From contig NZ_CP091277.1 in NCBI RefSeq assembly GCF_029633965.1, positions 1,175,940 to 1,239,939 of the forward strand: a DNA stretch of 64,000 nt, written 5' to 3'. Below are positions 6,324-55,491 of this stretch, one piece after another (position 1 is the stretch's first letter; each line of letters opens with the position of its first letter). The notes beneath the pieces were generated by a model. The model was given only the letters and a program-made list of their open reading frames with translations, ran no database searches and was not told the DNA's origin. A program made the position numbers and the translations under genes. Origin of the DNA: Methanogenium sp. S4BF. Its GTDB lineage: Archaea; Halobacteriota; Methanomicrobia; Methanomicrobiales; Methanomicrobiaceae.

Positions 6324-7628
6324 TCAGTAGGGATAGAACACAAAAAAGAGCAGGCAGAGAAGAAACAGCCCCCAGCCTGCGGGATGGACATCCCCGGCCC
6401 GCCCTTTCATCACCTTGAATACCGGGAAGAGCACGAATCCGGCACACAGCCCGACACCCAGGTTCCCGGTGAAGATCATCATCACGATGACCGCAAATGC
6501 GGGAATGAGTTCGGTGTAATCGTGATAATCAATCTTTGCAAGCGGGCTGAGCATCAGCATCCCGACGGCGATGAGTGCAGGACCTGTCGCGGCAGCAGGA
6601 ATGGCTGCAAAGAGCGGAGAGAAGAAGAGCCCGAGTGAGAAGAGGCCTGCCACCGTAAGCGCCACCAGACCGGTTCGTCCGCCGGCAGCCGTGCCGGCAC
6701 CCGATTCCAAAAATACCCCTGCCGTTGTCGTCCCAAAAAGAGCCCCTGCAATGGTGGCGAGTGAATCCGCTGCAAAGGTCTTCTCGATCTCCGGCAGGTC
6801 ACCGTTCGCATCGGTCAGTCCTGCCTGGGTAGCAATCCCCAGTGCCCCGCTCATCGTAAAGAACAGGTCCATCGTAAACATGGTCAGGAGAACAGAAACC
6901 ATCCCCCAGGACAGGACACCCACGATATCAAGCTGCAAAAGAACAGGGGCGGGATTCGGGGGCAGCGAAACAACGGCATCGGGCAGCGGCGCAATCCCGG
7001 TGAAAAACGCGGCTGCGGCAGTCGCAAGGATACCTATCAGGATGGCACCCCGCACTCCGCGTACCATGAGAATACTGATTAACAGAAATCCGCCGATGGC
7101 GAGAAGAATGGACGGAGAGGTGAGCGCTCCGGCCTTCAGGAGAGTACCTCCCTGCCCTCCCGCCACAATCCCGGATGTGGTCAGTCCGATATAACTGATG
7201 AACAGCCCGACACCCACCACAAAACTGTATTTCAGGTTCTTCGGCACGGCCTGCGCCAGAATGGTGCGCCCGCCGGTGACCGTCAGGATGAAGAGGAGGA
7301 CACCGGAAAGAAAGACCGCCCCAAGGGCTGTCTGCCAGGAGTAGCCGAGCACCCCCACGACCGTATAGGCGACAAAGGCATTCGTCCCCATATAGGGTGC
7401 GACCGCGAACGGGCGATTTGCATACAGCCCCATGAGTGCACACCCAAAGACCGCAGACAGAATCGTTGCAACCATCGACGGCCCGAACGGCATCCCTGCG
7501 GCCTGGAGAATCGCAGGATTGACGACGATGATATACGCCATCGTCATAAACGTTGCAGCACCGGCCAGAACCTCGGTCCGGGCATTGGTGCCGTATTCAT
7601 CAAATCTGAAGTATTCTGCGATTCCCAT
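6324..7628 (-). CDS. NCS2-family hypoxanthine/guanine permease (AzgA/PbuG type)
   Basis: A 434-residue, roughly 12-helix permease. The N-terminal FDEYGTNARTEVLAGAATF, MTMAYIIVVNP and VAPYMGTNAFVAY blocks and the central ATIAGALFGTTTAGVFLESG block are hallmarks of the AzgA-like branch of nucleobase:cation symporter family 2. It most likely imports hypoxanthine, guanine or adenine for purine salvage. A GGAG ribosome-binding site lies 8 bp before ATG 7628. Two short palindromes (7701-7712 and 7715-7724) sit in the promoter region. Decayed fragments matching this gene's central block occur at about 19485-19581 and 24078-24120, so the genome once had a second copy. Exact base specificity is not determinable. 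Confidence 0.9.
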   Translation of the reverse strand: MGIAEYFRFDEYGTNARTEVLAGAATFMTMAYIIVVNPAILQAAGMPFGPSMVATILSAVFGCALMGLYANRPFAVAPYMGTNAFVAYTVVGVLGYSWQTALGAVFLSGVLLFILTVTGGRTILAQAVPKNLKYSFVVGVGLFISYIGLTTSGIVAGGQGGTLLKAGALTSPSILLAIGGFLLISILMVRGVRGAILIGILATAAAAFFTGIAPLPDAVVSLPPNPAPVLLQLDIVGVLSWGMVSVLLTMFTMDLFFTMSGALGIATQAGLTDANGDLPEIEKTFAADSLATIAGALFGTTTAGVFLESGAGTAAGGRTGLVALTVAGLFSLGLFFSPLFAAIPAAATGPALIAVGMLMLSPLAKIDYHDYTELIPAFAVIVMMIFTGNLGVGLCAGFVLFPVFKVMKGRAGDVHPAGWGLFLLCLLFFVFYPY

Positions 7629-39368: not shown

Positions 39369-41012
39369 CTATGCGAAATACTGTATCTCCCCTTCCGTCC
39401 GCTCCCGTACAGGCATCACTCCGGGAAACGCCCGCTCCAGAAGCTCCCGGTTGAAGTGCGCCCATGTGACGGTCTGCGTCCCTGCTGTCACGGATGAGGA
39501 GGAGGAGGAGGAGGAGGAATCCGGGTAAACCACGCTCTCACCCTCCCCTGTCAGGTGCAGGTCAGGAAAGTGCCCGCTCGTATAAAGACCGTCACAGAGG
39601 AGGAGTTCGTTCAGGTCCCGGATCACCGCCTGCCCGGCCGGGGAACCGGCAGGAACCTCACTGTCGCCGGGGACGGCGATGATGTTCTGCACCCGGTGTG
39701 AGAGCCGCCCGAGGATATCACGGGCCGCCAGAGTCCGGGTGTCCCGGAGGTGCCGGAGAAACCGCAGCGCTGCCGGGAGGTCTTCCGGCGCAAACAGGAC
39801 ACCGCCCTGCCCGGACGCCGGAATCGTCACCCATGACCGGAAAAAGTAGTTTGCCTCCCTCGCAGGCCGTGTCGCAGAGCTCTCGCTGATGGCAGGCGGC
39901 CGCTGATCGGTCGTGAACGCCCCGTCATAGTAGACAGTCCGCCCGTTCTCCAGATCGATCTCTAAGAGCGCCGACCCGCTCCCGCCATCATCCTGTGATA
40001 CCACATGTCCGGGGTGGAACCGGACCATCTCCACCATCGGGTCATGCTCCACATCACGCACCAGCGCGAGATCCCGGACCGCCGTAAACATGAGCGTAAA
40101 GAGCGGATAGTCCAGAGAGCCTGAATACGGTTTCCAGTCACCGAAGAGAAAATATTCAAGGGCGGCGGGTGACGCCCGGATAAGGGCGAGAATGGGGAGA
40201 ATCCAGTGCTGGTACTCAAACCGCAGATAATGCTCCCCTATGCCGGTGGGATAGCGTTTCAGCCAGGGGTGATGCACAAATGTCTCCCGGTTACCGGATT
40301 CTATCGCCGTCATCCGCTCCTCATCAGAGAAACCGTCCGGAAACACCGGGAGCCTGAGTCCGACCGCCGGAGAGCAGGCAGACTGCTCCGAAATATATGC
40401 CGCAAAGGAGCAGGGAGGGGCTCCGCTATTCACCGATTCGGTGCGGTAATACTGTTCGAATACCTTCGGTGCTTCATACATATCCCAGTCCCTCAGCGGG
40501 ATGCTCCGCTGAATCTCGACCCCTTTTTGGGAGAGAATGTACCTGACCAGACCTGCGCTGGTGTGCTCCATGACATAGGCATTCATCAGCGCCCGCTGCA
40601 TCCCCGGGTCCTTGACCATCCGGAACAGGTATTTCATAATCCTGAGGTACGGCTCATACCCTTCCAGCAGGTAGTAATGCGGCGTCTTTCCGCTCTGCCG
40701 CGGCGCCCGGATCATAACAGATCCCAGTATCCCGAGTGCACAGAGGTCCTCACAGATTTTCCCCGCCCAGTCCTTTGAGATTGACGTCTTCCCCTGCGAA
40801 AGATAGGACGTCCCGAAATCTTCGTGGATCCTTGACGGATAGGAGTAGAAGCGGCACCCCCCTGACGCTGTCGGATACCGGACGCCGCATCCCTTCTGCA
40901 AACCGGGTTTTGTGGACACACCCGTGTTCACCACAAAGTACCAGAGCACCTCCCACTTCTGCCTCGTCATCTCTTCCGGTTCCATAGGTGAAACTGTCCT
41001 GTTGTGTTCCAT
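39369..41012 (-). CDS. Unrecognised protein with N-terminal winged-helix-like region
   Basis: The protein is 547 residues from ATG 41012 (MEHNRTVSPMEPEEM). Longer readings back to 41117 run through an array of direct repeats and are disfavoured. Residues about 15-120 (RQKWEVLWYFV, KDWAGKICEDLCALGIL, HYYLLEGYEPYLRI) look like a helical or winged-helix module that may bind nucleic acid. The rest has no recognised domain, though it looks folded (FEYQHWILPILALI). A nine-Ser stretch near the C-terminus is encoded by a trinucleotide repeat. No membrane segments are seen. Function unknown. Confidence 0.65.
   Translation of the reverse strand: MEHNRTVSPMEPEEMTRQKWEVLWYFVVNTGVSTKPGLQKGCGVRYPTASGGCRFYSYPSRIHEDFGTSYLSQGKTSISKDWAGKICEDLCALGILGSVMIRAPRQSGKTPHYYLLEGYEPYLRIMKYLFRMVKDPGMQRALMNAYVMEHTSAGLVRYILSQKGVEIQRSIPLRDWDMYEAPKVFEQYYRTESVNSGAPPCSFAAYISEQSACSPAVGLRLPVFPDGFSDEERMTAIESGNRETFVHHPWLKRYPTGIGEHYLRFEYQHWILPILALIRASPAALEYFLFGDWKPYSGSLDYPLFTLMFTAVRDLALVRDVEHDPMVEMVRFHPGHVVSQDDGGSGSALLEIDLENGRTVYYDGAFTTDQRPPAISESSATRPAREANYFFRSWVTIPASGQGGVLFAPEDLPAALRFLRHLRDTRTLAARDILGRLSHRVQNIIAVPGDSEVPAGSPAGQAVIRDLNELLLCDGLYTSGHFPDLHLTGEGESVVYPDSSSSSSSSSVTAGTQTVTWAHFNRELLERAFPGVMPVRERTEGEIQYFA
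39496..39519. repeat. Trinucleotide microsatellite (GAG)7GAA
   Basis: On the plus strand GAG is repeated seven times and followed by GAA, encoding most of a poly-Ser run in the minus-strand gene. Copy-number changes would lengthen or shorten the Ser run without breaking the frame. Confidence 0.85.
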
Positions 41013-41059: not shown

Positions 41060-41126
41060 AACGCATCGACACATACCGCTGCCCGCCAACGCGTCGACTC
41101 GGCAGAAAACGACTCAACGCGTCGAC
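41060..41126. repeat. Three AACGC(A/G)TCGAC direct repeats with an exact 28-bp period
   Basis: AACGCATCGAC starts at 41060, and AACGCGTCGAC starts at 41088 and 41116. The 17-bp spacers are unrelated. The array sits between the divergent unknown gene (start 41012) and the 37-residue protein gene (start 41208), which suits a cooperative operator. No replication gene is near to suggest an origin. Confidence 0.65.
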
Positions 41127-41207
41127 CGAATCCCGGAATACCCGACTCTTTCACGGGATTTATCATTCACGTTTTCACATCTTAGTATAGCAGCAAGGAG
41201 GTGAATC

Positions 41208-41321
41208 ATGGCAAAGAAAAACGATAACCAGAAGGGCGCATCCCGTAACCAGTCCGGTGCCGAGAAGAGCGGTAAGGACTTCAAGTCTAACGCCCAGTCT
41301 GCAGGAAAGGGAAGAAAATAA
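41208..41321 (+). CDS. 37-residue basic, low-complexity protein
   Basis: ATG 41208 follows AAGGAGGTGA, a near-perfect Shine-Dalgarno sequence with 4-5 bp spacing, so efficient translation is likely. The peptide starts MAKKNDNQKGASRNQSG and ends SAGKGRK. It is rich in Lys, Gly, Ser, Asn and Gln, lacks hydrophobic clusters and should be unfolded alone. This composition recalls small stress, nucleic-acid-binding or desiccation-type proteins, but no family is identified. The three 28-bp-spaced repeats lie just upstream. A pyrimidine-rich CCCCTCCCCTTTT follows the stop and may terminate. Confidence 0.75.
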   Translation: MAKKNDNQKGASRNQSGAEKSGKDFKSNAQSAGKGRK

Positions 41322-41498: not shown

Positions 41499-42380
41499 TC
41501 ACTCCACCGTCACCGTCCGCTCCGGCGTCCATGCCGGATCGACAAAACTCAGAATCACGGCCACCGTATCCCCGGCATTCCGGTATCCCTTCACCTGGTC
41601 CGGCGCGATGTATGCAGCACTCCCTGCAGGGACACGGATCTCGCTCCCGGCAGGGGTGTATACTTCAATCTCACCTTCAGTCACGTAGATCAGCTCAGAC
41701 GCACCGGCAAGCCGGTTGAAATCCGCAGACCCTCCGGGGAGGATTTCTGCGTATGCGATACTGTAGTCAATCGGGAAGTGCTTCTCAGGCATCAGCACCG
41801 GATTTGCGAGGGTATATATCATCATGTCAGACCCGATGTCCCATTCAATGCCCGCACGGGGATCGGGGATGACAATCGGCATGCCGTCTGTTGCGCCACC
41901 ATCCGTTCCGGGTGTATATGCGGCCAGTTCATCTCCGGACAACTCATTTGCTGCGGAAAACGGCGGCTGAATGACGTCAATATAGCGGAGGGGTACATCT
42001 CCGGTCGCGGTGATTGTCTGCCGGACACCCATCGGCAGGACAACAATCTCCCCATCCCGGGCGGTCACGGTTGTGGCATCGCAGTGGATCTCCGCTTCAC
42101 CTCCAATCACACAGACCATCTCTGACGTTTCTAAAAGCCGATGGGGGAGTGTCCCGTTGCCCGGCGGAAGGGTAACAAGTCCCATGCTGTAGTGAATTGT
42201 TATATCCGGCGTCTCCTCGCCGATGATGCCGGCATAGTGTCCCTGCCCGTCAAAGATGGAGAAACCGTCTGCCGGGGTCAGGAGTTGGATGCCCTCGTCC
42301 TCTGCCGGTGACGGACTCTGTGTCAGGCACCCGGCTGAGATGACCATGCAGATGAAGATGAGAAGTATGGCCCTGCGCAT
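41499..42380 (-). CDS. Lipoprotein with two cupin domains
   Basis: The protein is 293 residues from ATG 42380 (MRRAILLIFICMVISAGC), chosen because the lipoprotein signal and lipobox begin there; the frame upstream to 42503 is Pro-rich and unlikely to be coding. Two cupin barrels follow: about 60-150 (LPPGNGTLPHRLLETSEMVC, GEAEIHCDA) and 190-290 (LPGGSADFNRLAGASELIYV, GEIEVYTPAGSEIRVPAG). Metal-binding His residues are only partly kept, so it may bind a small molecule rather than catalyse. It would sit on the outer face of the membrane. Confidence 0.8.
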   Translation of the reverse strand: MRRAILLIFICMVISAGCLTQSPSPAEDEGIQLLTPADGFSIFDGQGHYAGIIGEETPDITIHYSMGLVTLPPGNGTLPHRLLETSEMVCVIGGEAEIHCDATTVTARDGEIVVLPMGVRQTITATGDVPLRYIDVIQPPFSAANELSGDELAAYTPGTDGGATDGMPIVIPDPRAGIEWDIGSDMMIYTLANPVLMPEKHFPIDYSIAYAEILPGGSADFNRLAGASELIYVTEGEIEVYTPAGSEIRVPAGSAAYIAPDQVKGYRNAGDTVAVILSFVDPAWTPERTVTVE

Positions 42381-42514
42381 GAATAGTGAATCTGCGGGAG
42401 ATGACATAAATCCAGTTATCTGTGGGGGAAAAGGGGCCGGAGGGGGACGAAAGACCACCGGGAAAGGTGACAGGAATCGGATGATGATCCGTGGCCGGTT
42501 CATTCATCGACGAC

Positions 42515-42564: not shown

Positions 42565-45500
42565 TTATTCTTCCTTTCTCCTGCGAATTGCCAGATATCC
42601 CACCACAGCAAGTGCAGCGATTAAAATACCCCAGAGCCAGATTGCAGACCCGTCCGGTGAACCGGATGGTGGTTTGGTCATGTCCGGCAGAGGCACTTCA
42701 GGTGCCGCTTCTGCGAAGAGGGCCCAGGTGCTGAAGTGACTGACCTGAATGGTGATGGTTCTCTCGTTAGCATCCGCCGTTCCTGGGACACGCTCCCATG
42801 CTCCGCTCGTGCTGTTGAACCATCCGGCTTCTGCCCGGTTGCCGTATCTCTCCCATTCATCCTCTGAAAGCACAAATGTCAGAGTAATTGCGGGTGAAAA
42901 GGACACGCCGTCAGGACTGCAGTCGAAGGCATAGAGTGCCCGTGGATGCTCAAGGTGCCCTATATCTCCGGGTGACGGGACGGAAGTGACCGGCACAGCG
43001 ACAATGCGGATGGTTTCCTGCAGCATGCCGGAGCCATCCCGTGCCACCACACCGGCATCGATAGTGAGGTATCCGGCCAGATCATCCGCCCAGATGGTCA
43101 CCGTTCGTTCAACGGCACCGTCAGGGCCTGCCGGAAGCCGGGCAGTTCCGATAAACTCAGTGGGTGCCACTGCCGGTGTGGGATTCACGGTCACAGCAGC
43201 CGTCGGCGTTGGTCGGGCCGTGGTCGCCACCGGTGTCGACAGGGGAGTCGGGGTAGGCGTCGGTGTCACAAACGGTGTCGGATCATCACTGTCTCCGCCA
43301 TCCGTATGGATGGTGACGATGACAAACCGCACCTTTTCCTCAGTAATACTGCCATACGCATTCGTCGCGGTCAGTGAGACCGCGTATGCTCCCGCACGCT
43401 CGTAGGTGTGCACCGGATGCTGCTTCGTCGAAGTCGCTCCGTCACCGAAGTCCCAGAGCCAGGCCGTCGGACTGCTGGTGGTCCGGTCAGTGAACGTGAC
43501 GGTAAGCGGGGCATACCCCGTATTCTGGCTGGCACTGAAGTCAACCGTCATCGGGTTGGTGACGGTGATGTATCCCGCCTCTTCTGCCGTATCCGTACCC
43601 ACCGGATTGGTGATGGTGAGGGCGACATCATAGACGCCGGCCGCAGCGTAGGTATGTACCGGGTTCTGCTCTGTCGAAGTAGTCCCGTCACCGAAGTTCC
43701 AGGCCCAGGTTTCGGGATAGCCATCCGAATAGTCATAGAACTGCACCATAAGAGGAGCAGGCCCTTCGACCGGAGTGGCGGAGAACTTCGCCGCAGGGCC
43801 CTCATTCAGGGCGAACGCGACGAGTGCCTTGAAGGAGAACCCGTCCGGCGAGAGGGCGGTGAAGGTGTAGATGCCGTCTGCGTAGGTGTAGGTTGTCTCA
43901 AGGTGGGAGACCACCCCCTCATGGGAGAGGCTCAGAACGGTGAAGTTGTCCGCCCCGCCCCAGGCGTCCACATATGCGGCAGATGCACTCATCACGATGA
44001 TTGCATCGGAGACGTTAATTCCACCGAATGCGGATTTGTTAATTTCCATGGTGTAGGCCACTTCTTCGAGTTCGGCACCCATATCACCAAGGACACCGAG
44101 CTGGAAGAGCCGGCCCATCGTCTCGTTCACGGCGCCACGGGTGATCGTGACGTCGAGCCGGGTGTCGGGGTTCGTCAGGCCGGAGAGGGACCCGGAGATG
44201 TTCGCGCTGATGCCGGTGGTGACCGCACCCACATCCCCACTGAGGTTGACGGCGTTCGTAATGTTGCCAATCGACGCACCGGTGCAGTTGCCCGTCCACT
44301 CCGAGGATATGTTCTGCAGACCGGTGGTCCGGATGGTGATGTCAATGCCCGGATTGCGGACAAGGATGGTCGTGTTGCCATTCGTGATGGTGGCATTCCG
44401 GTTCTCGGTGATATTGATGGAAACGTGCTGCGTCACATCGTCAAAGGTCATGTTTGCGACGGTGGCAGGCAGGGTGTCATTGAGGGCGGTCGCGACTGGT
44501 GTGATGGTGATGTAGCCGGGACGCATGTCGTCGAACCGGTAGGTGGTATTGGTCCGCGTCCACTGCGGGTTGACGAGCCGGAGTTCGCGTTCACAGGGCA
44601 GGCCGTTCGAGTGCACCTGCATATCGATGAGGGAGACTGCCTCCTCGCTCGTGATTGCGTCCGGTGCCGCCGCACTAACCTGGAGCCAGCCGTTTTCATT
44701 CCGGACATCGGAGGAGATAATCAGTCCCGGAATGGTCGCATTCGCCCGGATGTCTGTCACGGTCACGACCGTCCGGTTGAACTCCATGATGAACGAGAGG
44801 TTGGTGACCCCATTGAGCCCCGCTGCAGTGATGGTCAGATATTTCGAAGATTCGACGGGGAGAGCACCGGAGGGTGCATCCACGGCGGTGCGGGCCTCGA
44901 CTGCAATGGCACCGTCTTCCCGGACAACCGGGCATGTGTGATCGATGGCATACACGAATGCGTCCATGATGGAGAGGGGTGCGGTCTGCCGGAGGCCTTC
45001 AATCTCCGGTGCGGACCGGAAGGTGATGTTTGCAACTGCGGCAGCGCCTTCGAATGTGATGCCGGCGTCATCCGTGATGACGATGGCGACAAAGCCACCT
45101 GTGTTGTCGATGGTGGCACCGAAGGCCGCACCCCCGGTGAGGGGTGCCGGGGCGGCACTCTCCACGGTGATGAGTGACGGGTCATAGGCGATGGTGAAGG
45201 TGAGGTTTGTTACGTTATCCAGCCCCGTGGCGCTCACCAGGAATCCGGCACTCTCGTTTGCGGGCAGTCTGCCTTCCGGAGCGATGAGGGTGACGGCGGG
45301 CGTGCTGCTCACGCAGATGTAGTCCTCGCGGGTGCGGGTGTTCGTGCCGTATTCGTTGCCGACGGTGAGGCTGACCGTGTATGTTCCTTCTTCTGTGTAG
45401 CTGTGAACCGGATTCTGCTCTGCTGAAGTGGTGCCGTCACCGAATGACCAGTTCCAGGTCTCCGGCCCGCCGGTGGAGGTGTCGGTGAAGGTGACCTGAA

Positions 45501-48500
45501 GCGGTGCATCACCCGTCAGGGGTGCTGCGGTAAAGGAGCCGACCGGAGCGGTTCCCACCGGGGTAAGGGTGAACGCAGCCTCGGCGGTTGCGTCCGCGGT
45601 GACCTGAATGGTCCGAACAGGGGTGGGATTATACCCTGATTTCTCTACGGCGACCGTGTGGCTGCCAACGGGGATGTCGGGGAGTGTGCTGTTTGTCAGA
45701 ACGGTGGTGTTGCAGCCGTCCAGCCAGATCCAGGCATCGTCCGGCGATGAAGTCACATGGATGGCACCGCTCTCCTGCGACAGGGCGAAGAAGACGTCGC
45801 TTTCCTCATCCGGCACAACCGTTACGCTCCGGTTTGTCGGGCGGATGTAGCCAGACTTCTCGATGGTGACGGTGTGGATCCCCGCGGCGATGCCGGTGAG
45901 GGTGGTGTTTGTGAGCCGGCCGGTGTTCTCGCCGTCCAGCCAGATGGTGGCATTCGCCGGGCTGGAGCTGACACGGATTGAACCGGGGTGTGATACGAGG
46001 GTGAATTCCACCGTTTCGATGGTGCCGGTCGTCACTGTTGCAATGCCCGTTGCGGGTGCGTACCCGTCCTTCTCAACGGTCACATTATACGTGCCCACCG
46101 GCTGGTCCGTGAAGGTGAAGTTCGTCAGTTCACCTGTCGCGGTGCCGTTCAGGGAGATGCGTGCACCGGAAGGCATGGAATTCACCTGTAAGGTGCCCGT
46201 CTGGCTGGTGAGGACGAAGCTCACGAGCTCGGTCTCGTCCGGTGTTACCGTGACAATCTGACTTGCAGTGTCATACCCAGCCCTGACCACCGTCACATTG
46301 TATTCACCAACCGGCTTGGTATCGAAGGTGAAGTTCGTCAGTTCACCTGTTGCTACATTATTCAGGTAGATGCTTGCTCCTGCAGGTGTGGAATTGACCT
46401 GCAGCGTGCCGGTCTGACCTATAAGGGTGAAGTCCACCAGTTCTGTGGCATCCTTTGTCAGGGTAACGGTTTCGGTCTGGGTGTCATACCCGTCCTTCAC
46501 GACGGTCACATTGTACTCGCCGACCGGCTTGTCCGCAAAGATGAAGTTCGTGAATTCGCCCGTGGCATCCCCGTTCAGGTAGATGCTCGCATTCGTCGGA
46601 GTGGAGTTCACCTGCAGCGTCCCGACCTGCTGCACCAGCGTGAAATCAACCACTTCGGTGGCATCCTTTGTAAGTGTGACCGTCTCCGTCTGGCTGTCAT
46701 ACCCGTCCTTCACGACCGTTACGTTGTACTCGCCAACCGGCTTGTTATCGAAGGTGAAGTTCGTGAGTTTGCCCGTGGCATCCCCGTTCAGGTAGATGCT
46801 TGCGTTCGTTGGCGTTGAATTTACCTGCAGCGTGCCCGTCTGACCTATAAGAGTGAAGTCCACCAGTTCAGTGGCACCCTTCGTCAAAGTGACCGTCTCC
46901 GTCTGGGTGTCATACCCGTTCTTCACGACTGTCACATTGTACTCGCCAACCGGCTTGTCCGTGAAGGTAAAGTTCGTCAATTCGCCCGTGGCATCCCCGT
47001 TCAGGTAGATACTGGCGTTTGTTGGTGTGGAATTGACCTGCAGCGTACCCGTCTGACCTACAAGGGTGAAGTCCACCAGTTCTGTCGCATCCTTCGTCAG
47101 GGTAACCGTCTTCGTCTGGGTGTCATACCCGTTCTTCACGACTGTCACATTGTACTCGCCAACCGGCTTGTCCGCAAAGGTGAAGTTCGTCAGTTCACCT
47201 GTCGAAACATCGTTCAGGTAGATGCTGGCATTTGTTGGTGTTGAATTCACCTGCAACGTTCCAACCTGCTGCACCAGCGTAAAGGAGACATAGTCGGTAG
47301 CGTCCTTCGTTAAAGTGACCGTCTCGGTCTGGGGGTCATACCCGTCCTTGACCACTGTCACATTGTACTCGCCAACCGGCTTGTTCGCAAAACTGAAGTT
47401 CGTGAATTCGCCCGTCGCCACATCGTTCAGGTAGATGCTTGCTCCTGCAGGTGTGGAATTGACCTGCAGCGTACCCGTCTGACCTACAAGGGTGAAGTCC
47501 ACCAGTTCTGTCGCATCCTTCGTCAGGGTAACCGTCTTCGTCTGGGTGTCATACCCGTTCTTCACGACTGTCACATTGTACTCGCCAACCGGCTTGTCCG
47601 CAAAGGTGAAGTTCGTCAGTTCACCTGTCGAAACATCGTTCAGGTAGATGCTGGCATTTGTTGGTGTTGAATTCACCTGCAACGTTCCAACCTGCTGCAC
47701 CAGCGTAAAGGAGACATAGTCGGTAGCGTCCTTCGTTAAAGTGACCGTCTCGGTCTGGGGGTCATACCCGTCCTTGACCACTGTCACATTGTACTCGCCA
47801 ACCGGCTTGTTCGCAAAACTGAAGTTCGTGAATTCGCCCGTCGCCACATCGTTCAGGTAGATGCTTGCTCCTGCAGGTGTGGAATTGACCTGCAGCGTGC
47901 CGGTCTGACCTATAAGGGTAAAGTCCACCAGTTCTGTGGCATCCTTTGTCAGGGTAACGGTTTCGGTCTGGGGGTCATACCCGTCTTTCACGACTGTCAC
48001 ATTGTACTCGCCAACCGGTTGGTCCGTGAAGGTGAAGTTCGTCAGTTCACCCGTTGCAACTTCATTCAGGTAGATGCTCGCATTCGTCGGGGTGGAGTTC
48101 ACCTGAAGCGTCCCGACCTGCTGCACAAGTGTGAAGGCAACCAGTTCACTCGCATCCTTCGTCAGAGTAACGGTCTCGGTCTGGCTGTCATACCCGTCTT
48201 TCACGACTGTCACATTGTACTCGCCAACCGGTTGGTCCGCAAAGGTGAAGTTCGTGAATTCGCCCGTCGCCACATCGTTCAGCCAGATGCTTGCGTTGGT
48301 CGGAGTTGAATTGACCTGCAGTGTACCAACCTGCTGCACCAGCGTGAAGGCAACCAGTTCACTCCCATCCTTCGTCAGAGTAACGGTCTCGGTCTGGCTG
48401 TCATACCCGTCCTTCACGACTGTTACGTTGTACTCGCCAACCGGTTGGTCCGCAAAGGTGAAGTTCGTGAATTCGCCCGTCGCCACATCGTTCAGCCAGA

Positions 48501-51500
48501 TGCTTGCGTTGGTCGGAGTTGAATTGACCTGCAGCGTCCCGACCTGCTGCACAAGTGTGAAGGCAACCAGTTCAGTCGCACCCTTCGTCAGAGTAACAGT
48601 CCCGGTCTGGCTGTCATACCCGTCCTTCACCACCGTCACATTGTATTCACCGACAGGTTTGCTCGTGAAGGTGAAGTTCGTCAGTTCGCCCGTGGCAACG
48701 TCGTTCAGGTAGATGCTCGCATTCGTCGGAGTGGAGTTCACCTGTAAGGTGCCGACCTGCTGCACCAGCGTGAAGGCAACCAGTTCAGTCGCACCCTTCG
48801 TCAGAGTAACAGTCCCGGTCTGGCTGTCATACCCGTTCTTCACGACTGTCACATTGTACTCGCCAACCGGTTTGCCCGTGAAAGTGAAGTTCGTGAATTC
48901 GCCCGTGGCAACATCGTTCAGGTAGATGCTGGCGTTGGTCGGAGTGGAGTTCACCTGCAGCGTCCCAACCTGCTGCACCAGCGTGAAGTCCACCAGTTCT
49001 GTCGAATCCTTTGTCAGGGTAACGGTCTCGGTCTGGGGGTCATACCCGTCCTTCACGACCGTCACATTGTATTCACCGACAGGCTTGTTATCGAAGGTGA
49101 AGTTCGTCAGTTCGCCCGTCGCAACGTCGTTCAGGTAGATGCTGGCGTTTGTTGGTGTAGAATTCACCTGCAAGGTGCCGACCTGCTGCACCAGCGTGAA
49201 GGAAACCAGTTCTGTCGAATCCTTCGTCAGGGTGACGGTCTCGGTCTGGGTGTCATACCCGTCCCTGACCACCGTCACATTGTACTCGCCGACCGGCTTG
49301 TTATCGAAGGTGAAGTTCGTGAATTCGCCCGTGGCAACATCATTCAGGTAGATGCTGGCGTTCGTCGGAGTGGAGTTCACCTGTAAGGTCCCAACCTGCT
49401 GCACCAGCGTGAAGGAGACAGACTCGGTAGCGTCCTTCGCTAAAGTGACCGTCTCCGTCTGGGTGTCATACCCGTCCTTCACCACCGTCACATTGTATTC
49501 ACCGACCGGCTTGTCCGCAAAGGTGAAGTTCGTAAATTCGCCCGTGGCGACCTCATTCAGCCAGATGCTTGCGTTCGTTGGCGTGGAATTCACCTGTAAG
49601 GTGCCAACCTGCTGCACCAGCGTGAAAGAAACCAGCTCACTCGCACCCTTCGTCATAGTGACGGTCTCGGTCTGGGGGTCATACCCGTCTTTCACGACCG
49701 TAACATTGTATTCACCGACCGGCTTGTTATCGAAGGTGAAGTTCGTGAATTCGCCCGTGGCAACATCATTCAGGTAGATGCTTGCGTTGGTCGGAGTTGA
49801 ATTGACCTGCAGTGTACCAACCTGCTGCACCAGCGTGAAGGCAACCAGTTCACTCCCATCCTTCGTCAGGGTAACAGTCTCGGTCTGGGGGTCATACCCG
49901 TCCTTCACGACCGTAACATTGTATTCACCGACAGGCTTGTCCGTGAAGGTGAAGTTCGTCAGATCACCCGTCACAACATCGTTCAGCCAGATGCTGGCGT
50001 TGGTCGGAGTGGAGTTCACCTGCAGCGTCCCGACCTGCTGCACCAGCGTGAAATCAACCACTTCGGTGGCATCCTTCGTCAGAGTAACGGTCTCGGTCTG
50101 GCTGTCATACCCGTCCTTCACGACTGTTACGTTGTACTCGCCAACCGGCTCGTCCGCAAAGGTGAAGTTCGTCAATTCACCCGTGGCGACCTCATTCAGC
50201 CAAATGCTTGCGTTCGTTGGAGTGGAGTTCACCTGCAGCGTCCCAACCTGCTGCACCAGCGTGAAGGAAACCAGTTCTGTCGAATCCTTTGTCAGGGTGA
50301 CCGTCTCGGTCTGGGTATCATACCCGTCCTTCACGACTGTCACATTGTACTCGCCGACCGGTTTGTCCGCAAAGGTGAAGTTCGTGAATTCGCCCGTCGC
50401 AACTTCATTCAGGTAGATGCTGGCGTTCGTTGGCATAGAGTTCACCTGTAAGGTGCCAACCTGCTGCACCAGCGTGAAGGAAACCAGCTCACTCGCACCC
50501 TTCGTCATAGTGACGGTCTCGGTCTGGGGGTCATACCCGTCTTTCACGACCGTAACATTGTACTCGCCGACCGGTTTGTCCGTGAAGGTGAAGTTCGTCA
50601 ATTCGCCCGTCGCAACGTCGTTCAGGTAGATGCTCGCATTCGTCGGAGTGGAGTTCACCTGCAGCGTCCCGACCTGCTGCACAAGTGTGAAGGCAACCAG
50701 TTCACTCGCATCCTTCGCCAAGGTAACCGTCTTGGTCTGGGTGTCATACCCGTCCTTCACGACTGTCACATTGTACTCGCCAACCGGCTTGTCCGCAAAG
50801 GTGAAGTTCGTCAATTCGCCCGTGGCATCTCCGTTCAGGTAGATGCTGGCATTCGTTGGTGTCGAGTTCACCTGCAACGTTCCAACCTGCTGCACCAGCG
50901 TGAAGGCAACCAGCTCACTCGCATCCTTCGTCAGAGTAACAGTCTCGGTCTGGCTGTCATACCCGTCCTTCACGACTGTCACATTGTACTCGCCAACCGG
51001 CTTGTTCGCAAAGGTGAAGTTCGTCAGTTCACCCGTCGCCACATCGTTCAGCCAGATGCTGGCGTTTGTTGGTGTAGAATTCACCTGCAGCGTCCCGACC
51101 TGCTGCACAAGTGTGAAGGCAACCAGTTCACTCGCATCCTTTGTAAGTGTGACCGTCTCGGTCTGGGAGTCATACCCGTCCTTCACGACTGTTACGTTGT
51201 ACTCGCCAACCGGTTTGTCCGCAAAGGTGAAGTTCGTCAGTTCACCCGTCACAACATCGTTCAGCCAGATGCTGGCGTTCGTCGGAGTGGAGTTCACCTG
51301 CAGCGTCCCGACCTGCTGCACCAGCGTGAAATCAACCACTTCGGTGGCATCCTTCGTCAGGGTGACAGTCTCGGTCTGGGTGTCATACCCGTCCCTGACC
51401 ACCGTCACATTGTACTCGCCAACCGGCTTGTTCGCAAAGGTGAAGTTCGTAAATTCGCCCGTGGCATCCCCATTCAGGTAGATGCTCGCATTCGTTGGGG

Positions 51501-54500
51501 TGGAATTCACCTGCAATATTCCCACCTGCTGCACGAGCGTGAAGGCAACCAGTTCACTCGCATCCTTCGTCAGGGTAACAGTCTCGGTCTGGGTGTCATA
51601 CCCGTCCCTGACCACCGTCACATTGTACTCGCCAACCGGCTTGTTCGCAAAGGTGAAGTTCGTCAGTTCACCCGTGGCATCCCCGTTCAGGTAGATGCTC
51701 GCATTCGTCGGGGTGGAGTTCACCTGCAGCGTCCCGACCTGCTGCACCAGCGTGAAGTCCACCAGTTCTGTCGAATCCTTCGTCAGGGTAACGGTCTCGG
51801 TCTGGGTATCATACCCGTCCCTGACCACCGTGACGTTGTATTCACCAACCGGCTTGTCCGTGAAGGTGAAGTTCGTGAATTCGCCCGTCGCCACATCGTT
51901 CAGGTAGATGCTCGCATTCGTCGGGGTGGAGTTCACCTGCAGCGTCCCGACCTGCTGCACCAGCGTGAAGGAGACATACTCGGTAGCGTCCTTCGTTAAA
52001 GTGACCGTCTCGGTCTGGGAGTCATACCCGTCCCTGGCCACCGTCACATTGTACTCACCGACCGGCTTGTTATCGAAGGTGAAGTTCGTGAATTCGCCCG
52101 TGGCAACATCATTCAGGTAGATGCTGGCGTTCGTCGGAGTGGAGTTCACCTGTAAGGTCCCAACCTGCTGCACCAGCGTGAAGGAGACAGACTCGGTAGC
52201 GTCCTTCGCTAAAGTGACCGTCTCCGTCTGGGTGTCATACCCGTCCTTCACGACCGTAACATTGTATTCACCGACAGGCTTGTCCGTGAAGGTGAAGTTC
52301 GTGAATTCGCCCGTTGCAACTTCATTCAGGTAGATGCTCGCATTGGTCGGAGTCGAATTCACCTGCAGGGTACCGACCTGCTGAACCAGCGTGAAGTCGA
52401 CGAGTTCGGTGGCATCCTTTGTAAGTGTGACCGTCTCGGTCTGGGTGTCATACCCGTCCTTCACGACTGTCACATTGTACTCGCCAACCGGTTTGTTATC
52501 GAAGGTGAAGTTCGTCAGTTCACCCGTCGCAACGTCGTTCAGGTAGATGCTGGCGTTCGTTGGTGTGGAGTTCACCTGCAATGTTCCAACCTGCTGAACC
52601 AGCGTGAAATCAACCACTTCGGTGGCATCCTTCGTCAGAGTAACAGTCTCGGTCTGGGTATCATACCCGTCCTTCACCACCGTCACATTGTATTCACCGA
52701 CCGGCTTGTCCGCAAAGGTGAAGTTCGTCAGTTCGCCCGTGGCATCCCCGTTCAGCCAGATGCTGGCGTTCGTTGGGGTGGAGTTCACCTGCAGCGTCCC
52801 AACCTGCTGCACCAGCGTGAAGGAGACATCCTCAGTCGAGTCCTTCGTGACCGTGGCGACCTCCGTTGCCGGATCGTAGCCATCCAGCTCAACGGTGACG
52901 TTGTAGGTACCCACCGGCTGGTCTGCGAGACTGACGTTTGTGAAGTCACCGGTTGCAGTGCCATTCAGGTAGATCGCTGCCCCCGACGGTGTGGAATTGA
53001 TCTGCAGCGTTCCGACCTGCCGGACGAGGGTGAAACTCACCGTTTCTGTCTGATTTGATGAGACCGTAACGTTCTGGGTTTCTGAATCATACCCACTCAT
53101 TGCAACTGTTACATTGTAGATCCCGGTATCGAGATCGCTCAGGGTCGCATTCGTGACCGAGGCGTTCAGCACCCCGTCAAGGTAGATGCCTGCTCCCGCG
53201 GGCGACGAATTGATCTGCATACCGCCGGTCTGGTGCACGAGGTCGAAGCTGACGAGCGTTGTGGCGTTGTTCGAGACCGTCACTGAATCGTTCACGGCGG
53301 TCTCGAAATCGTCCAGCACCAGCGTGACGTTGTAGATACCGGTATCGAGATCGCTCAGCGTCGCATTCGTGACCGAGGCGTTCAGTACCCCGTCGAGATA
53401 GATGCCTGCTCCCGCGGGCGAGGAATTGATCTGCAGACCGCCCGTCTGGTGCACGAGGTCGAATGAGACCAGGGTTGTCTCATTATACAAGACCGTCACC
53501 GAATCATTCACTACGGTCTCGTAGTCCTCCAGCACCACTGTCACATTATAGGTACCGGTATCAAGACCGCTCAGGGTCGCATTCGTGACCGAAGCGTTCA
53601 ACACCCCGTCGAGATAGATGTTCGCCCCCGCAGGCGAGGAATTGATCTGCAGACCACCGGTCTGGCGCATGAGATCGAAGAAGACAGATGTCGTTTCGTT
53701 GTCTGTCACGGTGACGGACTCATTCACTCCGGTCTGGTAGCCGTCCAGCACCACCGTGACGTTGTATACGCCTTCCGGCATGTCCGGGAAGGTGGCATTG
53801 GTTACCTGTACAGGGTCAACACCATTGAGGATGATGGATCCACCTGCCGGAGCCGAGGTTACCGCAAGGGTGCCGGTGCTATACGGCTGCCACTGGAAGA
53901 TCGGATACTGACTCTTGTGGGTAAACACCCGCCAGATCTTTGTCGAATCGGCACTGGTGCTGATGATACCCGCAGACCAGTTCAGACCGTTATCTTCAGC
54001 ACCGGTCAGGAACGCAATGTCTCTAAACTGCGTCGTGTCGGTAACGAGTGTCCCAAGACCGGAGTCTCCGTTGGTGTGCCGGTAACAATTGGTAAAGGAA
54101 GCAGCATCATTGAACCCAAGGAACCCGCCATCGTTCCCGTTCACCGCAATAGCAGTGCCCGTCGCATAACTGTTTGTGATGGTGGCACTACGCCGGTTCA
54201 GACCGACCAGACCGCCGGCATGAACATTTGCCGCTGACGCATTCCCGGTCGCATAACAATTGACAATGGTCCCGGCGTTCTCGTTCGTTCCGACAAGACC
54301 ACCGACATCGTCAATATCACCGCTGGCATTCCCGGTTGCGTAACAGTTCGCAATGTCGCCATCATTATTCCAGCCGACAAGACCGCCATTCGCATAGTGC
54401 GGTGCATACACATCACCGGTTGCATAACTCCCGGAGATGGAGCCACAGTTCTGCCCAACAAGACCACCTGCGTGTTTGTCAGTGCCGGTCACACCGGTCG

Positions 54501-55491
54501 TAGCGGAACAATTCGTAATATCTCCGAGGTTATACCCCACAAGACCGCCGTTATTCATCACACCGGCCACTGTTCCTGCCGCATAACAGCCGGAAACTGA
54601 ACTCCCGGCATCATTCAGGCCGACAAGCACACCGACATGGTTGTTCCCCCGAACACCGCCTTCGGTTGTCTCGATTGAAACACCGGCAATCACGGCACCG
54701 GAACCGGCCTGTCCAAAGAGACCGACGGCATCGACCCCGCTCTGTGCGAGCGTGAGGTTGCTGATGGTGTATCCACCCCCGTCGAAATTGCCGGTAAAGG
54801 GAATCGTGCTGTTGCCGATGGGTGCTGAGGGCTGACCGGACGCAAGAGTGATGTCACTGCCCACGGCAAAGTGCTTCCCGGTCCAGTCCTCCGGGACAGA
54901 CACGAGTTCCTCGATATCCGCACTCGAGGTTATTCGGTAGGGGCTTGCTGCGGTACCGTTCCCGCCGCTGTATCTGGAGAATGCAAAGAGCACGTCTTCT
55001 GTTTCACCGGACGAGAGCGTGACAGTCCGGGAGAGGGGGGCCAGACCGGTGCGTTCTACCGTAATGTTGTAGGTGCCGGTATTGATGTCACTGAGCGTCG
55101 TATTTGTGACGCCGCTCACACTGCCGTTCAGGTAGATGGTCGCCCCTGCAGGTGTCGAATTGATCCGGAGATCCCCGGTCCGGTGCACGAGGCTGAAGGT
55201 TACGACTGTTGTTTCATCGGTCGTGACGGTGACGGACTCATTTGCGGCAGTCTCGTAATCCGCCTTCACAACAGTAACATTGTAGGTACCGGTATCGATA
55301 TTGCTCAGGGTTGCATTGGTGACACCGCTCGCAGTGCCGTTCAGGTAGATGGCGGCTCCCGCGGGCGAGGAGTTGATCTGCAGACCGCCGGTCTGGTGGA
55401 CAAGGTCGAAGGTTACGACTGTTGTTTCATCGGTCGTGACGGTGACGGACTCATTAATCGCCGTCTCATAATCGTCCAGCACCACCGTCAC
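42565..55491 (-). CDS. Giant PEGA-repeat surface protein, downstream frame
   Basis: 4308 codons, opening in the middle of a PEGA domain (TVVLDDYETA), so it is not an independent gene start. GTG 55491 overlaps the TGA of the upstream frame as GTGA. Order: PEGA units (to about 55020), a GLUG module (about 54975-53885), PEGA units (to 53030), 33 almost identical 71-residue PEGA repeats (53022-45990), two divergent repeats, PKD (about 45540-45310), two cohesin-like domains (about 45300-44480), an unknown domain (to 43810), two PKD domains (about 43790-43310), a Thr/Pro linker, one more domain, then a C-terminal helix IWLWGILIAALAVVGYLAI and RRRKEE. It is a membrane-anchored, probably N-glycosylated stalk. 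It may be translated by frameshift from 55488-63008. Confidence 0.9.
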   Translation of the reverse strand: MTVVLDDYETAINESVTVTTDETTVVTFDLVHQTGGLQINSSPAGAAIYLNGTASGVTNATLSNIDTGTYNVTVVKADYETAANESVTVTTDETTVVTFSLVHRTGDLRINSTPAGATIYLNGSVSGVTNTTLSDINTGTYNITVERTGLAPLSRTVTLSSGETEDVLFAFSRYSGGNGTAASPYRITSSADIEELVSVPEDWTGKHFAVGSDITLASGQPSAPIGNSTIPFTGNFDGGGYTISNLTLAQSGVDAVGLFGQAGSGAVIAGVSIETTEGGVRGNNHVGVLVGLNDAGSSVSGCYAAGTVAGVMNNGGLVGYNLGDITNCSATTGVTGTDKHAGGLVGQNCGSISGSYATGDVYAPHYANGGLVGWNNDGDIANCYATGNASGDIDDVGGLVGTNENAGTIVNCYATGNASAANVHAGGLVGLNRRSATITNSYATGTAIAVNGNDGGFLGFNDAASFTNCYRHTNGDSGLGTLVTDTTQFRDIAFLTGAEDNGLNWSAGIISTSADSTKIWRVFTHKSQYPIFQWQPYSTGTLAVTSAPAGGSIILNGVDPVQVTNATFPDMPEGVYNVTVVLDGYQTGVNESVTVTDNETTSVFFDLMRQTGGLQINSSPAGANIYLDGVLNASVTNATLSGLDTGTYNVTVVLEDYETVVNDSVTVLYNETTLVSFDLVHQTGGLQINSSPAGAGIYLDGVLNASVTNATLSDLDTGIYNVTLVLDDFETAVNDSVTVSNNATTLVSFDLVHQTGGMQINSSPAGAGIYLDGVLNASVTNATLSDLDTGIYNVTVAMSGYDSETQNVTVSSNQTETVSFTLVRQVGTLQINSTPSGAAIYLNGTATGDFTNVSLADQPVGTYNVTVELDGYDPATEVATVTKDSTEDVSFTLVQQVGTLQVNSTPTNASIWLNGDATGELTNFTFADKPVGEYNVTVVKDGYDTQTETVTLTKDATEVVDFTLVQQVGTLQVNSTPTNASIYLNDVATGELTNFTFDNKPVGEYNVTVVKDGYDTQTETVTLTKDATELVDFTLVQQVGTLQVNSTPTNASIYLNEVATGEFTNFTFTDKPVGEYNVTVVKDGYDTQTETVTLAKDATESVSFTLVQQVGTLQVNSTPTNASIYLNDVATGEFTNFTFDNKPVGEYNVTVARDGYDSQTETVTLTKDATEYVSFTLVQQVGTLQVNSTPTNASIYLNDVATGEFTNFTFTDKPVGEYNVTVVRDGYDTQTETVTLTKDSTELVDFTLVQQVGTLQVNSTPTNASIYLNGDATGELTNFTFANKPVGEYNVTVVRDGYDTQTETVTLTKDASELVAFTLVQQVGILQVNSTPTNASIYLNGDATGEFTNFTFANKPVGEYNVTVVRDGYDTQTETVTLTKDATEVVDFTLVQQVGTLQVNSTPTNASIWLNDVVTGELTNFTFADKPVGEYNVTVVKDGYDSQTETVTLTKDASELVAFTLVQQVGTLQVNSTPTNASIWLNDVATGELTNFTFANKPVGEYNVTVVKDGYDSQTETVTLTKDASELVAFTLVQQVGTLQVNSTPTNASIYLNGDATGELTNFTFADKPVGEYNVTVVKDGYDTQTKTVTLAKDASELVAFTLVQQVGTLQVNSTPTNASIYLNDVATGELTNFTFTDKPVGEYNVTVVKDGYDPQTETVTMTKGASELVSFTLVQQVGTLQVNSMPTNASIYLNEVATGEFTNFTFADKPVGEYNVTVVKDGYDTQTETVTLTKDSTELVSFTLVQQVGTLQVNSTPTNASIWLNEVATGELTNFTFADEPVGEYNVTVVKDGYDSQTETVTLTKDATEVVDFTLVQQVGTLQVNSTPTNASIWLNDVVTGDLTNFTFTDKPVGEYNVTVVKDGYDPQTETVTLTKDGSELVAFTLVQQVGTLQVNSTPTNASIYLNDVATGEFTNFTFDNKPVGEYNVTVVKDGYDPQTETVTMTKGASELVSFTLVQQVGTLQVNSTPTNASIWLNEVATGEFTNFTFADKPVGEYNVTVVKDGYDTQTETVTLAKDATESVSFTLVQQVGTLQVNSTPTNASIYLNDVATGEFTNFTFDNKPVGEYNVTVVRDGYDTQTETVTLTKDSTELVSFTLVQQVGTLQVNSTPTNASIYLNDVATGELTNFTFDNKPVGEYNVTVVKDGYDPQTETVTLTKDSTELVDFTLVQQVGTLQVNSTPTNASIYLNDVATGEFTNFTFTGKPVGEYNVTVVKNGYDSQTGTVTLTKGATELVAFTLVQQVGTLQVNSTPTNASIYLNDVATGELTNFTFTSKPVGEYNVTVVKDGYDSQTGTVTLTKGATELVAFTLVQQVGTLQVNSTPTNASIWLNDVATGEFTNFTFADQPVGEYNVTVVKDGYDSQTETVTLTKDGSELVAFTLVQQVGTLQVNSTPTNASIWLNDVATGEFTNFTFADQPVGEYNVTVVKDGYDSQTETVTLTKDASELVAFTLVQQVGTLQVNSTPTNASIYLNEVATGELTNFTFTDQPVGEYNVTVVKDGYDPQTETVTLTKDATELVDFTLIGQTGTLQVNSTPAGASIYLNDVATGEFTNFSFANKPVGEYNVTVVKDGYDPQTETVTLTKDATDYVSFTLVQQVGTLQVNSTPTNASIYLNDVSTGELTNFTFADKPVGEYNVTVVKNGYDTQTKTVTLTKDATELVDFTLVGQTGTLQVNSTPAGASIYLNDVATGEFTNFSFANKPVGEYNVTVVKDGYDPQTETVTLTKDATDYVSFTLVQQVGTLQVNSTPTNASIYLNDVSTGELTNFTFADKPVGEYNVTVVKNGYDTQTKTVTLTKDATELVDFTLVGQTGTLQVNSTPTNASIYLNGDATGELTNFTFTDKPVGEYNVTVVKNGYDTQTETVTLTKGATELVDFTLIGQTGTLQVNSTPTNASIYLNGDATGKLTNFTFDNKPVGEYNVTVVKDGYDSQTETVTLTKDATEVVDFTLVQQVGTLQVNSTPTNASIYLNGDATGEFTNFIFADKPVGEYNVTVVKDGYDTQTETVTLTKDATELVDFTLIGQTGTLQVNSTPAGASIYLNNVATGELTNFTFDTKPVGEYNVTVVRAGYDTASQIVTVTPDETELVSFVLTSQTGTLQVNSMPSGARISLNGTATGELTNFTFTDQPVGTYNVTVEKDGYAPATGIATVTTGTIETVEFTLVSHPGSIRVSSSPANATIWLDGENTGRLTNTTLTGIAAGIHTVTIEKSGYIRPTNRSVTVVPDEESDVFFALSQESGAIHVTSSPDDAWIWLDGCNTTVLTNSTLPDIPVGSHTVAVEKSGYNPTPVRTIQVTADATAEAAFTLTPVGTAPVGSFTAAPLTGDAPLQVTFTDTSTGGPETWNWSFGDGTTSAEQNPVHSYTEEGTYTVSLTVGNEYGTNTRTREDYICVSSTPAVTLIAPEGRLPANESAGFLVSATGLDNVTNLTFTIAYDPSLITVESAAPAPLTGGAAFGATIDNTGGFVAIVITDDAGITFEGAAAVANITFRSAPEIEGLRQTAPLSIMDAFVYAIDHTCPVVREDGAIAVEARTAVDAPSGALPVESSKYLTITAAGLNGVTNLSFIMEFNRTVVTVTDIRANATIPGLIISSDVRNENGWLQVSAAAPDAITSEEAVSLIDMQVHSNGLPCERELRLVNPQWTRTNTTYRFDDMRPGYITITPVATALNDTLPATVANMTFDDVTQHVSINITENRNATITNGNTTILVRNPGIDITIRTTGLQNISSEWTGNCTGASIGNITNAVNLSGDVGAVTTGISANISGSLSGLTNPDTRLDVTITRGAVNETMGRLFQLGVLGDMGAELEEVAYTMEINKSAFGGINVSDAIIVMSASAAYVDAWGGADNFTVLSLSHEGVVSHLETTYTYADGIYTFTALSPDGFSFKALVAFALNEGPAAKFSATPVEGPAPLMVQFYDYSDGYPETWAWNFGDGTTSTEQNPVHTYAAAGVYDVALTITNPVGTDTAEEAGYITVTNPMTVDFSASQNTGYAPLTVTFTDRTTSSPTAWLWDFGDGATSTKQHPVHTYERAGAYAVSLTATNAYGSITEEKVRFVIVTIHTDGGDSDDPTPFVTPTPTPTPLSTPVATTARPTPTAAVTVNPTPAVAPTEFIGTARLPAGPDGAVERTVTIWADDLAGYLTIDAGVVARDGSGMLQETIRIVAVPVTSVPSPGDIGHLEHPRALYAFDCSPDGVSFSPAITLTFVLSEDEWERYGNRAEAGWFNSTSGAWERVPGTADANERTITIQVSHFSTWALFAEAAPEVPLPDMTKPPSGSPDGSAIWLWGILIAALAVVGYLAIRRRKEE
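45990..53030 (-). repeat. Array of 33 tandem 213-bp PEGA-encoding repeats
   Basis: Exact 213-bp (71-codon) period with no frame slips. Each unit encodes (V/T)GTLQVNSTPTNASI, LND(V/G)ATGE, TNFTF, KPVGEYNVTV, DGYD-x-QTETVTLTKD and FTLVQQ. Variants (IYLN/IWLN; GDATGE, DVATGE, EVATGE; VQQ/IGQ/VGQ) recur in mixed combinations, a mosaic expected from recombination or gene conversion between units. This is protein-coding repetition, not CRISPR. Confidence 0.95.
47041..47892 (-). repeat. Recent two-unit (426-bp) tandem duplication in the PEGA array
   Basis: The block starting CAGCGTACCCGTCTG at 47041 recurs at 47467, 426 bp (two 213-bp units) later, apparently without differences by eye, while other units differ at many positions. 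Confidence 0.8.

Follow-up and report, generated by a model that had tools for sequence, protein, structure and literature searches.

A gene for a small basic protein beside a candidate winged-helix regulator in Methanogenium sp. S4BF belongs to an unnamed family with relatives next to viperin genes

We analysed a stretch of 64,000 nucleotides (hereafter the window), corresponding to positions 1175940-1239939 of the 2.51-Mb single-contig genome (G000) of Methanogenium sp. S4BF. An open reading frame of 37 codons plus stop lies at 41208-41321 on the forward strand and translates into MAKKNDNQKGASRNQSGAEKSGKDFKSNAQSAGKGRK. It is the sole gene in a 513-bp gap between two opposite-strand genes, which encode a 538-aa protein (39369-40985, reverse strand) and a cupin protein (41499-42503). 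The sequence AAGGAGGTGA (41195-41204, forward strand), a strong ribosome-binding site three bases upstream of the ATG, occurs once in the whole window with both strands counted; the shorter GGAGGTGA occurs eight times, directly preceding ATG, GTG or TTG in three cases, and a similar GGAGGTGA site was found upstream of the small-gene copies in the genomes G105, G108 and G090. The product is basic and hydrophilic (net charge +7, GRAVY -1.82), contains 13.5% glycine and is probably unfolded. Elsewhere in the window, a 4308-residue open frame (42565-55491, reverse strand) consists largely of tandem repeats of approx. 70 residues, which we take to be PEGA-like.

A profile built from 42 relatives, with the window protein left out, was searched against all open reading frames of the window and picked 41208-41321 at E=1.8e-6, the next-best frame reaching E=0.14. 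The protein scored 24.7 bits, twelve bits above the best (12.4 bits) of 5000 shuffles of its own residues. Given this profile match and the score above all shuffles, the frame is, on sequence grounds, no chance frame but a real gene, whose small, basic product belongs to an unnamed family, and both the 37-residue basic product and the strong ribosome-binding site of the original prediction were borne out. The only Rfam match near the gene, to an animal microRNA family, was put down to chance (24.5 bits against a gathering threshold of 70), and scans for bacterial-type promoters and terminators around it gave nothing useful.

Among 232 genomes of the order, close homologues of like length were preceded by the same kind of ribosome-binding site. 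Two of them, from the same genus, share 62% identity with the window protein, over the whole length in G108 and over residues 1-34 in G105; eight weaker matches outside the genus are canonical members of one family, and the loci L010 and L011 were rejected as chance matches. Members have approx. 40 residues and the core AAxRIQSxADKTGxNQxFKxRAQSAAxKN, in one version of which H follows RIQS. With an 11-member profile, 29 order genomes gave matches at E<=0.1, of which 23 of 231 were kept at E<1e-8 (G103, G184, G045, G069, G135 and G079 were dropped). The gene was expected to lack conserved relatives if the prediction was wrong; as the peptide is conserved, that objection fails. At the level of the phylum, the family was found in 17 of 246 genomes at E<=1e-3, and a scan of named genome records yielded 56 family loci, with several in some metagenome-assembled genomes (MAGs). 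The carriers include Asgard archaea (Loki-, Heimdall-, Thor-, Hel- and Hodarchaeota and Borrarchaeum), Methanosarcinales, Methanocellales, Poseidoniales, Thermoplasmata, one Thaumarchaeota MAG and five bacterial records. No family member was found in phage records, and none of 33 pattern matches on viral contigs was confirmed.

The 43 members compared carry a net positive charge in 40 cases and contain, all together, one Cys and no Trp. Of the conserved core positions A11, R13, I14, Q15, G22 and F27, the window protein keeps A, R, Q, G and F; it has RNQ in place of RIQ and lacks two residues before F. Purifying selection acts on the gene in other branches (pS 0.522 and pN 0.055 for L022 against L024; pS 0.353 and pN 0.063 for a second pair of relatives) and is weaker between the window and G108 (pS 0.364, pN 0.188); dN/dS gave no usable information for L008/L009 and L051/L053. 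Within the family, the window copy forms a divergent and partly relaxed branch. Variant architectures were also observed. Three tandem copies of the gene occupy 6467-6800 of locus L214 (genome G120), which has two further copies elsewhere in its genome. N-terminal extensions in frame with the core were seen at L058 (3776-4123) and L061 (3794-4123), where they carry NPNN repeats, and at L075 (605-940), where the related extension is Asn/Gly/Ser-rich; these three loci belong to Poseidoniales or Euryarchaeota.

Upstream of the gene, a putative promoter-like element, CTTTCACGGGATTTATC (41148-41164, forward strand), recurs unchanged in G090 and in similar form in G105 and G108; in G000 it occurs once without mismatch, and 14 times with up to three mismatches vs four for a reversed control. 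Farther upstream lie three forward-strand copies of the repeat ACGCRTCGAC: ACGCATCGAC, with one mismatch, at 41061-41070, and ACGCGTCGAC at 41089-41098 and again at 41117-41126. Each follows the previous one by 28 bp, placing them at -147, -119 and -91 from the start codon. Two to three copies are kept in all five divergent-pair loci, which represent three families. G105 and G090, where the first copy deviates at up to two positions, show identical spacing, G108 nearly identical spacing, and G068 has two copies. The exact tandem pair occurs once in the genome (control 0). The argument from these repeats rests on spacing and conservation, since the 10-mer itself, with one mismatch allowed, is no commoner in the window than by chance (5 vs 4.35).

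A different signal was found at viperin loci with a CARF-type regulator. Of 13 such loci examined, 10 have a palindrome no more than three mismatches from GGAAACAGTTTCC in the 140 bp preceding the small gene, and 10 have one before viperin; 3-16% of random windows from the same loci, true sites included, match equally well. Before the small gene it was absent in the four winged-helix-type viperin loci examined (5-6 mismatches). In six genomes, the pattern GAAACARTTYC showed hardly any excess over its reversed control (G000, 6 vs 5; G096, 2 vs 4; G089, 6 vs 5; G046, 3 vs 1; G019, 9 vs 7; G094, 5 vs 3). With up to two mismatches, GGAAACNNTTTCC was counted 39 times in the window vs 19.2, but many of these sites were counted on both strands.

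The divergent 538-aa protein is a candidate sensor-regulator according to homology, a predicted model and a genome search. It has no match in Pfam or PADLOC, and is homologous over nearly its full length to viperin-adjacent proteins of a MAG locus (L088, E 3e-38) and of two Methanoculleus loci (L062, E 2e-31; L049, E 3e-31). The window therefore carries a feature proposed for viperin loci, a regulator homologous to one beside viperin. The predicted model (pLDDT 77, pTM 0.82), for which Foldseek returned nothing better than E 0.05, has a winged helix at its N-terminus. VIA-align, covering mainly residues 1-136, matched an Orc1 chain (Z 8.8, rmsd 3.1 over 102 residues; this Z lies near the level reached by common folds) and PadR (Z 8.6, rmsd 3.1 over 93 residues). 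Relatives of this protein were found at 12 places in 11 of 231 order genomes. The small gene is also present in nine of the 11 (1.1 expected; p=9e-9) and lies 197-1292 bp from the winged-helix gene in 10 of the 12 places; near the winged-helix gene of G091 no small gene was detected. The winged-helix gene of G085 stands beside viperin. In G090 the divergent pair is situated amid type I restriction genes (HSDR_N and Methylase_S, the HsdR and HsdS domains), and a homologue of the HsdR frame is present in G068.

The first sign of a link to antiviral defence upstream of the relatives was a radical SAM gene with a viperin signature, together with a CARF-HTH gene. We called viperin by NF038283 over its cut-off (180 bits), which retained 22 of 231 order genomes from 59 with viperin-like matches; the searches for the small gene, viperin and the winged-helix protein are assumed to cover one identical set of 231 genomes. 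Viperin and the small gene occur together in 15 genomes vs 2.2 expected (odds ratio 54, p=4.8e-13; because the genomes are related, such p-values overstate independence), and no small gene was detected in the other seven viperin genomes. In each of these 15 of the 23 family genomes, viperin and at least one copy of the small gene are 135-1068 bp apart, and most of these loci also have a CARF-HTH gene. Genome G122, in which a viperin fragment shares a short contig with the small gene, is a sixteenth case, tallied here as viperin-less. Five of the eight small-gene genomes so tallied carry the divergent winged-helix pair, its genes 197-223 bp apart; G201 has a more distant winged-helix pair, and the divergent gene of G110 falls into one cluster with a B-box/rhodanese protein. 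Altogether, a candidate regulator is adjacent to or near the small gene in 22 of 23 order genomes, the exception being G110 with a different DNA-binding-type neighbour. Since the search with NF038283 found no viperin in G000 at E<=1e-20, the antiviral link of the window rests on its winged-helix homologue.

Outside the order, viperin over the cut-off was found beside the small gene at three loci only: in a Lokiarchaeota MAG (297 bits), in a Bacteroidetes MAG (270) and on the plasmid pMETHO01 of Methanomethylovorans hollandica (270 bits), whose gene table, known to be incomplete, has no gene entered for the small frame. At locus L212 the neighbours match the PADLOC models for pVip, Csa3 and TPR. 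In Poseidoniales the gene upstream of the small gene is MkoB/DrmC-like (105 bits at L058). Counting the plasmid with the 56 loci from named records, the flanks examined contained viperin at 11, CARF at nine, PLD-like genes at eight and winged-helix genes at seven of 57 loci; at least one of these neighbours was seen at 26 loci and none at 31, many of which have short flanks. Locus L207 (G108), one of 68, was left out of the neighbourhood comparison because the profile missed its small gene.

Several other arrangements recur. At three loci without viperin, L222 (5115-5930), L210 (8520-9434) and L214, the small gene is divergent from a gene for a protein with B-box zinc finger and rhodanese domains; the domains were confirmed for L222, where the start of the protein presumably resembles a ribbon-helix-helix. 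In two Lokiarchaeota MAGs and one Methanosarcinaceae MAG (L051, 4334-7091; L053, 3608-6344; L099, 4151-6924), a cassette of genes for radical SAM activase-like, NrdD-like (anaerobic ribonucleotide reductase) and kinase-like proteins has the small gene in first position, and opposite it the two Lokiarchaeota MAGs encode a CARF-like protein; this cassette could be an undescribed nucleotide-based defence set. In two bacterial MAGs (L050, 4214-6166; L090, 2160-3989), the small gene is followed by a related protein of approx. 600-650 residues whose start is HTH-like; that of L050 also has TPR repeats and a SEC-C motif. Downstream of a viperin-TPR locus, near position 4965 of L215 (G103), a short stretch reading AAGRIQSA is possibly a remnant of the small gene; its score was not significant.

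The small protein itself has no match in Pfam, and PADLOC, with which the window copy alone was scanned, gave none either; six Pfam families were matched by the 43 relatives below threshold, and NCBIfam matched none of these relatives. Sequence searches of the PDB found nothing with an 11-row profile and, with a 43-row profile, only chance matches to antibody and esterase chains (best E 0.35). The AlphaFold model, one helix with pLDDT 64 and pTM 0.20, was uninformative, and no description of the family or gene was found in searches of open-licence papers. The nearest described setting is that of the pVip/Csa3-like CARF-HTH/TPR loci, where many of the small-gene relatives in the order sit; the window locus differs in lacking viperin, and neither a CARF nor a TPR neighbour was seen there. 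A viperin system with a TPR protein has been reported as exclusive to archaea (PMC12988326), and the available excerpt of that paper does not name the small protein.

The most plausible explanation, one that we hold slightly above even, is that the gene encodes a small basic protein of a family serving antiviral or conflict loci and switched by the adjacent regulator. All functional evidence for it comes from sequence and neighbourhood. We consider the association with defence probable, and regulation by the neighbouring gene equally so. Following this explanation, infection or a nucleotide signal would be sensed by the winged-helix protein (at other loci by the CARF-HTH protein), which would also bind the upstream sites; altered binding would lead to a burst of peptide, to which the near-ideal ribosome-binding site would contribute. 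The peptide would then act on nucleic acid or a nucleic-acid enzyme, in the role of a small effector or cofactor, an activity that we regard as doubtful, and perhaps fold into a helix on its partner. Such folding on a partner, perhaps nucleic acid, is suggested by the positive charge, the scarcity of Cys and Trp and the low-confidence helix. The window genome would carry a viperin-less two-gene version.

The original prediction had likened the product to stress or nucleic-acid-associated proteins. Its basic and hydrophilic nature stands; the likeness itself is an argument from composition, and the genomic neighbours (viperin, CARF and winged-helix genes), which point to antiviral defence, are the stronger lead. 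An LEA-like or hydrophilin-type protectant, abundant as a disordered shield under salt, heat or drying and remotely kin to SMP, is unlikely, yet it stays the main rival because SMP (PF04927) is the best-represented Pfam family among the sub-threshold matches. SMP aligns weakly with four of the 43 relatives, more than any other Pfam family, and in the three cases detailed the alignments span most of the domain; all of them fall below the cut-off of 22 bits (best 16.4), and the window protein has none. In genome searches one G120 copy reached 13.4 bits with PF04927, and matches over the cut-off numbered 0/60, 0/13 and, in a bacterial group, 4/188; the last four all lie in frames of more than 700 residues, so that no sequence bridging to SMP was obtained. 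Plant SMP proteins are longer. Hydrophilins are defined by hydrophilicity above 1 and Gly above 6%. The family is very hydrophilic, and the window protein, being Gly-rich as well, has both properties of composition, but Gly exceeds 6% in just 17 of 43 relatives and falls short in 26. A protectant would also leave the viperin, CARF and winged-helix neighbours unexplained. As the relatives in the order adjoin viperin or a sensor-regulator gene, a small switchable part of archaeal immune defence is more likely than a general stress protein.

The frequency of candidate regulators beside the gene would also suit a co-regulator, a peptide that tunes the neighbouring winged-helix or CARF-HTH protein by binding to it, through feedback or anti-repression, and has no effector role. 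We consider this quite unlikely: the same peptide core accompanies unrelated regulator types, and in G120 copies occur in threes or apart from regulator genes. The gene might otherwise be a decaying remnant in this genus, its promoter and repeats persisting after the peptide is no longer needed. The copies in G105 and G108, which are rearranged or score poorly with the family profile (20.6 and 0.2 bits), point that way, as does a pN/pS of approx. 0.5 here vs approx. 0.1-0.2 in two other pairs; nevertheless, all three genomes of the genus in which the gene is present retain the open frame, the ribosome-binding site, the promoter element and the phased repeats, and decay appears very unlikely. 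It is highly improbable that the peptide belongs to a toxin-antitoxin or abortive pair and is harmful unless restrained by its neighbour. A small basic product beside a DNA-binding partner, the patchy spread and the plasmid copy would fit such a pair, but the genes are divergent rather than operonic in all five window-type loci, the protein is very soluble and the window copy matches no known toxin family.

The explanation of a switchable defence protein could be extended, speculatively, to a new class of antiviral small proteins: disordered basic effectors or cofactors of approx. 40 residues that would serve viperin-like, nucleotide-based immunity under interchangeable sensors (CARF-HTH, the winged-helix protein of approx. 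540 aa and others), spread over Asgard archaea, methanogens, marine group II and some bacteria, with a possible remote kinship to the eukaryotic SMP stress domain. We offer this extension tentatively and think it rather improbable as a whole. The family is widespread and unnamed, its proteins tiny and positively charged, and since defence catalogues are mostly built from longer proteins, they readily overlook a component of viperin loci that has just 40 residues. Even if the small protein has no effector role, the locus offers a candidate regulator, unnamed and directly testable, in the 538-aa winged-helix protein with its phased repeats. If the small protein is needed for immunity, the set of genes to be cloned for tests of archaeal and Asgard viperins would change, and there would be a handle on virus sensing by methanogens.
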